Shown here: piece by piece, positions 22,774-25,320 of the stretch
How the letters are laid out: each line of letters opens with the position of its first letter
Position numbering within the stretch: position 1 is the stretch's first letter
Assembly: GCA_030655955.1 (NCBI GenBank)
Contig: JAUSOZ010000251.1
Span: 1 to 38,018, forward strand
Origin: Deltaproteobacteria bacterium
GTDB taxonomy: Bacteria; Desulfobacterota; Desulfobaccia; Desulfobaccales; 0-14-0-80-60-11
Length of the DNA: 38,018 nucleotides
Direction: 5' to 3'
The notes under the pieces: model-generated
Told to the model about the DNA's origin: nothing
Database searches by the model: none
What the model saw: the letters and a program-made list of their open reading frames with translations, nothing else
Position numbers and translations under genes: made by a program

Positions 22774-23667
22774 ATGCGAACCTTTCAAGAGATCAAGGAC
22801 AATTACCGGTTCAACGACCCGGATATCGAGACCTTAAAAGGCCTGTTGCCGTTGGTGGAGCCCCACGCCGACACGATCATAGCGGATTTCTACAATCTGT
22901 TCCTTGCTGTCCCCGATACCGCCAAATTTCTGAAAGATGAGGCCAAGTTGACCTGGCTGCGGGCCCAGCATCAAAAATGGCTGCTGGCCCTGTTTCAGGG
23001 TCCTTATGACGAGCGCTATTTCCAACGCCTGCAGCGCGTCGGCCTCGCCCACGTGCGCATCGGCCTGTCGGCTCACTTCGTTTATGTGGGGATGAACCTG
23101 GTCCGCCGGCACCTGCACCAGATCATCGAGACCGAGGTGGAACCCCGGCAGCGGGAGGCCGCGTTCAGGGCGATGGAAAAGATCCTGGACCTGAACCTGG
23201 ACATCATTGCCCGGACCTACCACGAAGAAGAACTCCGCCGGGTCTTTCTCTCCCAGAAGCTGGATTCCTTGTTGATCCGGTTTTCCCAGCGCTTCACTTT
23301 CGGCCTCAACATCCTTCTGGTGGTGGGCCTCCTGGGCCTGTCCCTGGGGGCGGTGGGCCTGGTGGTCCAGGACGTTATCCATATCGTCCAGGGGAATCTT
23401 ACCCAAGGCCTGGTGGGCGCCATGGGCTCGGTGCTGATCCTGTGGGTGGTCATCGAATTGCTGGACATGGAGATCGACCGCCTCCGGGGCGGCGCCTTCA
23501 AGCTCCAACTCTTTGTGGGGTTGGCCCTGGTGGCCTTTATCCGCAAGGTCCTGGTGTCCTCCCTGGCCTCCCATGACCTGTGGACCGAAGGGCTTTACCT
23601 GGCGGGCATATTGGTGTGCGGCGTGATCTTCTGGCTGGTGTCCCGGGCCGAGGCGGGCAAACCGTAG
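22774..23667 (+). CDS. Globin-coupled sensor fused to a PsiE-type membrane domain
   Basis: A 297-residue fusion. Residues 1-155 form a protoglobin (globin-coupled sensor) domain: IADFYNLFLAVPDTAKFL, then GLAH93VRIGLSAHFVYVGMNLV, where H93 is the expected proximal haem ligand. Residues 165-297 carry four membrane helices with the PsiE pattern (VVIELLDMEIDRLRGGAFKL, then VGLALVAFIRKVLVSSL). PsiE is a phosphate-starvation-inducible membrane protein of unclear function. The protein probably senses O2, NO or redox state and passes the signal to its membrane part. The start at 22774 is chosen because CGGAG lies ten bases upstream. The stop is six bases from the stop of the convergent kinase gene. 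Confidence 0.85.
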   Translation: MRTFQEIKDNYRFNDPDIETLKGLLPLVEPHADTIIADFYNLFLAVPDTAKFLKDEAKLTWLRAQHQKWLLALFQGPYDERYFQRLQRVGLAHVRIGLSAHFVYVGMNLVRRHLHQIIETEVEPRQREAAFRAMEKILDLNLDIIARTYHEEELRRVFLSQKLDSLLIRFSQRFTFGLNILLVVGLLGLSLGAVGLVVQDVIHIVQGNLTQGLVGAMGSVLILWVVIELLDMEIDRLRGGAFKLQLFVGLALVAFIRKVLVSSLASHDLWTEGLYLAGILVCGVIFWLVSRAEAGKP

Positions 23668-23673
23668 AGACGG

Positions 23674-24843
23674 TTAATCTTCCCCCGATCCCGGTTCCGG
23701 GGTCGAAGGGGCGGCAGGAGCCTCGGGCGGGGCGACGGGCGGAAACTCGTCCCCCATTTCCGGGCTGTCCGTGAAGCGGTGGGGCAGCCGGATGGTAACG
23801 GTGGTGCCCCGGCCCACCTTACTCTCCAGGGTGATAACCCCCCGGTGTTCGTCCACAATCTGGCGCACGAACACCATCCCCAAGCCGGTGCCGCCGATCT
23901 TGGTGGTATAAAACGGCACAAAGACCTTCTCCACCACTGCCTGGGGCATCCCTCGGCCCGTATCCTGAAGGATCAATACCGCAAATTGTTGCTCCCTGGT
24001 GGTGCGCACCAGCACAGTCCCCCCCTTCGGGGTGGCTTCCACGGAGTTGCGCACCAGATGGGCCAGGGCCACCTTCAGCAGGTGCTTGTTGAAGCGCCCC
24101 ACCAGCGGTTCGGGGCAGAGTTCCGCTACCAGGGAGATATTCTTGGCTTTCAGTTCCGGGAGCAGGAGGTCCAGGGTGCTCCGGACGATGACGTTCAAGT
24201 CCTCCTGGGCGAAAAACGCGGTTTTTCTCATAGCCAGGTTCTCGAAGCGCTCCACCATCTGTTCGATGCGCCGGGCCTCCTCGGCGATGGCCGTGGCCCA
24301 GGCCCGGCTGGGGTCGTCTTCGTGTGTCTTCCGCAGGAGGCGGTGGCTGAAGCCGCCGATGACGTGCAGGGGATTGCGGATGCCGTGGGCCATCCCCAGG
24401 GCCATCTCCGACATGGTGCGCTCCATCACCAGGGCTTCCATTTCCCGGTTGAGGGCCAGGATTTCGTGGCTGGTCTCTTCCAGATGGTGGTGGTCGGCCT
24501 CCATCCGGCGGTATAGGCGCTGAACCCGGTGAAAAAACAGAATGATGGCCGCGATGGCGACGTAAATCACGGTATCGAAGCCGCCGACAATCCGCTGAAC
24601 CAGCGCCAGGTTGGGAAGATTCCAGTAGGCGATAAGATCGTGCAGGGTATGGGAAATCAGGTGAGTTACGGAAAAAATCACAAAGGCGATGGCCAGCCAA
24701 TTAAAGAAGAGCCACAGGGCATTTTCCGGGTCCTGATCCACCAGTCGCCGGCTCAGGCGCAGGGAGAGGAGGGTCAAAATGAGGACGATGAGCGCACTCA
24801 GGTATTCCAGGATCCAGATAGGAGCCAGGGGCAGGGCAATCAT
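23674..24843 (-). CDS. Membrane histidine kinase with His-rich sensor helices
   Basis: A 389-residue sensor kinase. Three to four membrane helices occupy residues 8-105, with an unusual row of His in one of them (THLISHTLHDL: H61, H65, H68). A coiled linker leads to the dimerisation H-box EMALGMAHGIRNPL (phospho-acceptor H153). The ATP-binding domain has the N-box (HLVRNSVEATPKGG), G1 (DTGRGMP) and G2 (GGTGLGM) motifs. The last 30 residues are Pro/Glu-rich. It has no periplasmic domain, so it senses within the membrane or through a partner. Its start abuts the stop of a small His-rich membrane protein gene. No response regulator is adjacent; the only receiver in the window is at 6218. Confidence 0.9.
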   Translation of the reverse strand: MIALPLAPIWILEYLSALIVLILTLLSLRLSRRLVDQDPENALWLFFNWLAIAFVIFSVTHLISHTLHDLIAYWNLPNLALVQRIVGGFDTVIYVAIAAIILFFHRVQRLYRRMEADHHHLEETSHEILALNREMEALVMERTMSEMALGMAHGIRNPLHVIGGFSHRLLRKTHEDDPSRAWATAIAEEARRIEQMVERFENLAMRKTAFFAQEDLNVIVRSTLDLLLPELKAKNISLVAELCPEPLVGRFNKHLLKVALAHLVRNSVEATPKGGTVLVRTTREQQFAVLILQDTGRGMPQAVVEKVFVPFYTTKIGGTGLGMVFVRQIVDEHRGVITLESKVGRGTTVTIRLPHRFTDSPEMGDEFPPVAPPEAPAAPSTPEPGSGED

Positions 24844-25320
24844 CTACTCAGCTCCCGGCTTGCGGACCAGGGCCTTCAGACCCAGATAAAACATCAGGAA
24901 GGCCGGTACTAAAAGGAAGGAATGGTCGATCTTGGTGATATAGACCAGCCAGGTTTGGGAATCATACATGACGAGCTGCCGGCCCCAGCCATGGCCCAGG
25001 ATGATGGGATTTTCCAGGGTCCAGTCGGCCCAGTGGCCCACAAAAGCGTCGAGGTTCCATAAGGCGAGAAGGGCCCAGGCCCACACCAGGAGCCGAAAAC
25101 CACGAAATTTTTGCAGATGGGCATAATAAATTTCATGGATAAAAAAGAGCATGGACAAGAACAGGAGCAAATGGGCGGTCTGGTGGACATAGGAGCCTTG
25201 GGTGCCAAATTGGTACCAGGTGACCCATTGAGCCAGAACATTCTTAGGCGAAAGGAGGACGAGGACGAAAACCGCAGGGCAAATCTGAGATATCCAACGC
25301 CGCATGGGGTTAGGCCTCAC
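24844..25320 (-). CDS. His-rich four-helix membrane protein, probable kinase partner
   Basis: A 158-residue membrane protein that I cannot assign to a family. It begins with a signal-anchor or signal peptide (VFVLVLLSPKNVLA) and has about three or four further helices. Seven His residues are spread through it (H46, H50, H62, H68, H96, H110, H133), several at helix-end positions, with motifs YVHQTAHLLLFL and IHEIYYAH. Its first His pair (H-x3-H) parallels the H61/H65 pair in the kinase encoded next. The stop codon is directly followed by the kinase start, so expression is coupled. A haem- or metal-binding sensory subunit is plausible but unproven. Confidence 0.72.
   Translation of the reverse strand: MRPNPMRRWISQICPAVFVLVLLSPKNVLAQWVTWYQFGTQGSYVHQTAHLLLFLSMLFFIHEIYYAHLQKFRGFRLLVWAWALLALWNLDAFVGHWADWTLENPIILGHGWGRQLVMYDSQTWLVYITKIDHSFLLVPAFLMFYLGLKALVRKPGAE

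Follow-up and report, generated by a model that had tools for sequence, protein, structure and literature searches.

Histidine kinases that have transmembrane (TM) helices but lack a large extracytoplasmic domain, and that are encoded alongside a separate membrane protein, are exemplified by LiaS with LiaF; in the available part of PMC7492735, LiaFSR is described as unique to Gram-positives. The haem-sensing kinases HrrS and ChrS, as presented in the available part of PMC5812335, also have no extensive loops, and intramembrane sensing has been proposed for them; each of these kinases has six TM helices, and in HrrS it is the aromatic residues Y112, F115 and F118 that are implicated, not a cluster of histidines. 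By analogy, these two groups, the intramembrane-sensing kinases with accessory proteins and HrrS/ChrS, would be the closest in mechanism to the gene pair considered here, located in a stretch of 38,018 nucleotides of deltaproteobacterial DNA (hereafter, the window). Compared to LiaS/LiaF, the membrane partner from the window differs in that it looks homologous to the TM module of the kinase itself, and in that both proteins carry conserved histidines. The membrane anchors of succinate dehydrogenase, SdhC and SdhD, are two homologous three-TM subunits, each contributing one His to haem b. The likeness of our pair to these anchors is an analogy; profile comparison with Sdh_cyt proteins from relatives revealed no similarity. 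The features of the locus are as follows.

22774..23667, forward strand: protoglobin-PsiE fusion, 297 aa, a convergent neighbour outside the unit.
23674..24843, reverse strand: histidine kinase, 389 aa, type II (without PAS), consisting of a three-TM module, HisKA and HATPase_c.
24382..24387, reverse strand: kinase H153-G154, the predicted phospho-acceptor His followed by Gly where Glu or Asp is usual.
24514..24843, reverse strand: three-TM sensory module of the kinase, approximately residues 1-110, the companion of the partner.
24649..24651, reverse strand: kinase H65, invariant (81/81), at the predicted outer end of TM2.
24844..25320, reverse strand: the partner, a small membrane protein of 158 aa from GTG, with a predicted signal peptide and three predicted TM helices.
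24922..24927, reverse strand: partner D132-H133, predicted outer end of TM3 (D in 75/81, H in 73/81).
25033..25059, reverse strand: partner W88-N89...G95-H96, predicted outer end of TM2 (W88 in 81/81, H96 in 78/81).
25171..25185, reverse strand: partner H46-x3-H50, predicted outer end of TM1, consensus EGxYxHQxxH (each His in 78/81).
25231..25305, reverse strand: partner residues 6-30, probably a signal peptide, with predicted cleavage.

The gene layout described in an earlier note on this DNA was confirmed. The TAG stop of the partner gene is directly followed, in frame, by the ATG of the kinase, leaving a zero-base gap, and the globin-PsiE frame ends at 23667, six bases before the kinase frame at 23674. 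Inside the partner gene, GGGAG is situated 8 bases ahead of the kinase ATG, which suggests translational coupling of the two genes. The partner contains seven histidines (H46, H50, H62, H68, H96, H109 and H133), the first two forming an H-x3-H pair. The alignment of relatives begins at M6 (ATG at 25305), hence the frame from the GTG at 25320 is probably too long, and the true start is probably this ATG, yielding a protein of 153 aa. The kinase matches HisKA with 39.6 bits and HATPase_c with 81.6 bits (Pfam cut-offs 26.9 and 26.4, respectively). Two other statements about it held as well: neither reading of the frame nor the domain scan revealed an extracytoplasmic domain, and H61, H65 and H68 are located within the second hydrophobic helix or at its end, as judged from the sequence. 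The window partner had no match to Pfam and NCBIfam families at E <= 1, nor to the plasmid collection.

The same note had named two outcomes that would speak against its proposal, namely, histidines that are not conserved and rare adjacency of the two genes in relatives; neither was observed as far as kinase H65 and partner H46, H50 and H96 are concerned. We surveyed 297 genomes drawn evenly from the window's phylum, together with its class (n = 29), the profile searches being confined to the phylum. In the class, the partner is present in 28 of 29 genomes (36 places), the exception being a genome that is 69% complete, and the kinase is directly downstream in all 30 loci fetched from these 36 places. 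In the phylum sample, the partner profile matched 72 places in 54 of the 297 genomes. The profile of the kinase three-TM module matched the same 54 genomes and two more, in which the match was limited to the end of the linker (positions 104-143 in one and 70-143 in the other; E = 5e-4 and 9e-4, respectively). For each of 81 partner genes (80 phylum and class loci), the next gene on the same strand encodes the kinase module, the gaps ranging from -4 to 34 bases in all pairs except one, with a gap of 162; a membrane protein encoded next to the kinase is also what marks the accessory proteins of intramembrane-sensing kinases. The partner and kinase-module distances are correlated (mirror-tree r = 0.69; maximum in 500 permutations 0.14). 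Within this sample, the partner and the kinase are an obligate pair, and the partner co-diverges with the kinase module.

Conservation was counted over 81 sequences, with residues numbered by the window frames. The proposed histidines fared differently: partner H46, H50 and H96 and kinase H65 are conserved, whereas kinase H61 is His in 19 of 81 sequences and Arg in 62, and H68 is His in 3 of 81. Thus, H61 and H68 were rejected as ligands. Kinase G87 is as invariant as H65 (81/81), partner H133 is missing in 8 sequences, and 62 of 81 partners have an additional His at the position of Q37 of the window protein. The conserved histidines are among the most conserved residues of both proteins, being retained in partners as low as 23% identical to the window one. 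They lie in or at the ends of predicted TM helices, as in haem-b membrane proteins, and such conservation in both proteins would be expected if the two shared a site for haem or metal. The three partner histidines H46, H50 and H96 are absent from the same three class paralogues (L099, L102 and L103; R, Y and Q instead), and such joint loss is as would be expected of a joint site. These three paralogues keep kinase H65, hence this residue would have another or an additional role in them.

A signal-peptidase-like A-x-A motif is found in the partner, with A at -1 in 77 of 81 sequences and A, V or S at -3 in 73 of 81, and the mature N-terminus should therefore be outside. The loop charges mostly agree with this topology, with more K+R on average in the loops assigned to the cytoplasm. 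In the partner, the mean K+R is 3.67 in loop 1-2 (placed inside), and loop 2-3 (placed outside) has a mean of 2.21 for K+R and 3.23 for D+E, although the C-terminus, placed inside, is no richer in K+R (2.11) than loop 2-3. In the kinase, the difference is small (3.22 in loop 1 vs. 2.10 in loop 2). Together, the motif and the loop charges would place the conserved partner histidines at the outer ends of their helices. As the kinase must end in the cytoplasm after TM3, its H65 would also be at the outer end of TM2, and the conserved histidines of both proteins are probably located on the periplasmic, outer face. AlphaFold models from a four-sequence alignment had a mean pLDDT of 39.3 and pTM of 0.22 for the partner-kinase read-through (542 aa), and 47.4 and 0.27 for the membrane part (296 aa), values too low for the models to be of use.

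When the broad profile of the partner (56 sequences) was compared by hhalign with that of the TM module (44 sequences), the score was 30.0 (probability 46%, E = 2e-4), GH96 of the partner being aligned with GH65 of the kinase; with query and target swapped, the score was 28.3 (probability 36%). The controls scored 15.7 and 17.3 for reversed profiles, at most 16.1 for thirty rotated-reversed ones, and at most 19.4 for five membrane families of neighbour genes, one of which (NhaD) is a single sequence. With modest certainty, the partner and the kinase TM module may be considered distant homologues, which suggests a heterodimer of 3+3 TM helices with a shared site.

No profile signal (at most 17.2) was observed with the haem-b families Sdh_cyt, Ferric_reduct and NarI, represented by alignments of 11 of 24, 3 of 6 and 23 of 30 loci, respectively (loci with no open frame across the match, or unlike the main group, were left out), and homology to these families was rejected. 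Pfam scans of the partners and modules produced scattered weak matches, with no family matched by more than 4 of 56 partners or 3 of 44 modules. Searches of PDB sequences with the narrow partner, broad partner and TM-module profiles gave nothing convincing; the matches of the narrow profile to a sialyltransferase (E = 0.001) and TrkH (E = 0.04) were absent with the broader one, and hence were attributed to composition.

The kinases fall into two paralogous types, labelled by the H-box: those in which xRNP adjoins the TM module and linker were assigned to type II (38 of 81, including the window pair), and the other 43, five divergent outliers (L093-L097) among them, to type I. Once the outliers are set aside, 34 of the remaining 38 type I kinases contain PAS_9, and none of the 12 Pfam families matched by the 38 type II kinases is a PAS family. 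All 38 type II kinases group with the five outliers on one branch of the kinase-module tree (support 0.92, 43 tips); the branch of the partner tree that fits best has 45 tips and a support of 0.49. Outside the class, 12 of 14 two-copy genomes hold one copy of each type. The exceptions are G313, with two copies of type I, and G153, with a type II copy alongside a module lacking any recognised kinase domain. In outlier L093 (7971-8570), the three-TM module with its partner is followed by a short LPICSACKKVRD-type tail having no Pfam match at E <= 0.01; the membrane pair may serve other outputs.

The two types also differ in their neighbours, by counts that are approximate (greedy reading frames, tblastn, seeds from the same loci). 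A response regulator encoded together with its kinase is common in two-component systems, though not obligatory. Outside the class, 25 of 38 type I pairs have a regulator gene on the same strand at most 600 bases downstream, and a PhsA-like or TauE match occurs within the fetched stretch in 23 of 38. For type II pairs, no regulator so placed was found, either in the class (0/25) or outside it (0/13); PhsA-like or TauE matches are nearby in 2 of 13 outside the class, one of which (L120) has both types side by side, and near none of the 25 class pairs. The five outliers have neither a regulator nor a PhsA-like or TauE neighbour. In selected examples identified by Pfam and NCBIfam, the type I regulators are of the NtrC type or lone receivers, and the neighbours are PhsA-like molybdoenzymes, the one in L105 scoring 565.6, i.e. 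below the PhsA cut-off of 694, or TauE exporters. At six loci (L081, L083, L087, L105, L111 and L114), a small uncharacterised membrane protein, of 190-211 aa where seen, is encoded in the vicinity of the pair, together with TauE and PhsA-like genes; its copy in L114 has no Pfam match at E <= 0.001.

In HisKA kinases, the acceptor His is typically followed by an acidic residue. The His-Glu pair is invariant in 38 type I kinases (outliers excluded), whereas the window kinase departs from the norm with Gly after H153. Among the class kinases, AHG occurs in 22 of 30, the window included, and ADG in 8 of 30, these being from sister lineages, with the N and G boxes kept throughout; among type II kinases outside the class (n = 13), the residue after His is acidic in 7, and H, K, Q or R in 6. 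The eight class kinases with Asp in place of the predicted acceptor His (L022-L028 and L030; ADGIRNP) retain the ATP-binding boxes and are possible pseudokinases. They resemble DivL, which, according to the available part of PMC4211667, is a pseudo-histidine kinase with retained kinase boxes and a replaced acceptor His. The replacing residue is Tyr in DivL and Asp in f2 relatives and one f1 paralogue, whereas the window kinase keeps its His. As the window lineage has no adjacent response regulator and an atypical H-box, its output is uncertain, and in the window kinase it may not be conventional phosphotransfer, although the His is present.

The earlier note had also grouped the partner, the kinase and the globin-PsiE gene as one sensory locus, and this part did not survive the comparison. 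Globin-PsiE is encoded in 19 of the 29 class genomes: it is convergent beside the pair in 13 (the window and 12 loci, gaps of 16-728 bases), which is what a common gas-sensing locus has in its favour, and on another contig in 6, one of them without a found partner. Against such a locus, the gene is on the opposite strand, it is absent from 10 class genomes that have the pair, and the 55 loci fetched outside the class contained no match (E limit 1e-8). We therefore consider gas sensing by the three genes together very improbable, and rejected globin as a third component; globin-PsiE is a lineage-specific neighbour in a part of the class, outside the unit. Downstream of the kinase in G002 (L003/L032), there are only short globin C-terminal fragments, and no globin is found in that genome, indicating an apparent loss. 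Our literature search found no paper on protoglobin and PsiE together.

The two-part membrane sensor suggested by the earlier note thus stands as an obligate pair with conserved histidines in both proteins, and falls as far as H61 and H68 are concerned; judged by its sequences, the pair looks like an undescribed two-subunit sensor. In the reading that we prefer, at about even confidence, the partner with its signal peptide removed and the kinase module, each with three TM helices, would form a six-helix heterodimer, in which partner H46, H50, H96 and usually H133 would meet kinase H65 at the periplasmic face. The ligand of this cluster would be redox-active or a metal, with haem b and a metal ion as the candidates, and its binding or a change in redox state would shift the helices and thereby alter the kinase core through the helical linker. 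We infer each of the direct contact, the topology, the shared site and the ligand; for the latter, haem or metal is preferred, followed by a quinone, and then by no ligand at all.

If the conserved histidines instead lined a quinone or quinol pocket near the outer face, the unit would read the quinone pool. Respiratory-type molybdoenzymes among the type I neighbours agree with that, and quinol binding is compatible with His, Trp and Asp lying at the surface of the membrane, but four to five conserved histidines seem more than needed; we regard such a pocket as unlikely. Narrow literature searches on RegB with quinone, and on a kinase with haem and a sulfite exporter, returned no paper. Alternatively, the partner could be a LiaF-like accessory of an intramembrane-sensing kinase that senses the state of the envelope or a transporter, with the histidines being structural or proton-linked and binding nothing. 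Short loops, the lack of any sensor domain found, the obligate accessory membrane protein and TauE family transporter genes recurring near type I pairs are all in line with it, and such kinases are known (available part of PMC7492735). However, the histidines rank with the most conserved residues, three of them being lost jointly, while the molybdoenzyme neighbours, counted with chosen seed proteins only, point to respiration; hence, we regard this variant as improbable too. A more specific form of the preferred heterodimer, which we offer tentatively and as rather doubtful, is a new class of redox or metal sensors arising from a duplicated three-TM unit, one copy being free with a signal peptide and the other fused to a kinase. 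The heterodimer would then be pseudo-symmetric, its equivalent GH histidines holding haem or metal between them, and the type II branch, including the window, would have altered H-box signalling, partly without the acceptor His.

As a joint sensor, the obligate pair would be an uncatalogued two-protein addition to those of the window's phylum, the type I members linking it to genes of PhsA-like molybdoenzymes and TauE-type exporters. Five residues can be named for mutation: H46, H50, H96 and H133 of the partner and H65 of the kinase. A kinase lineage is also seen here to lose the phosphotransfer signature while the membrane input is conserved, which bears on the origin of non-catalytic regulators from kinases.
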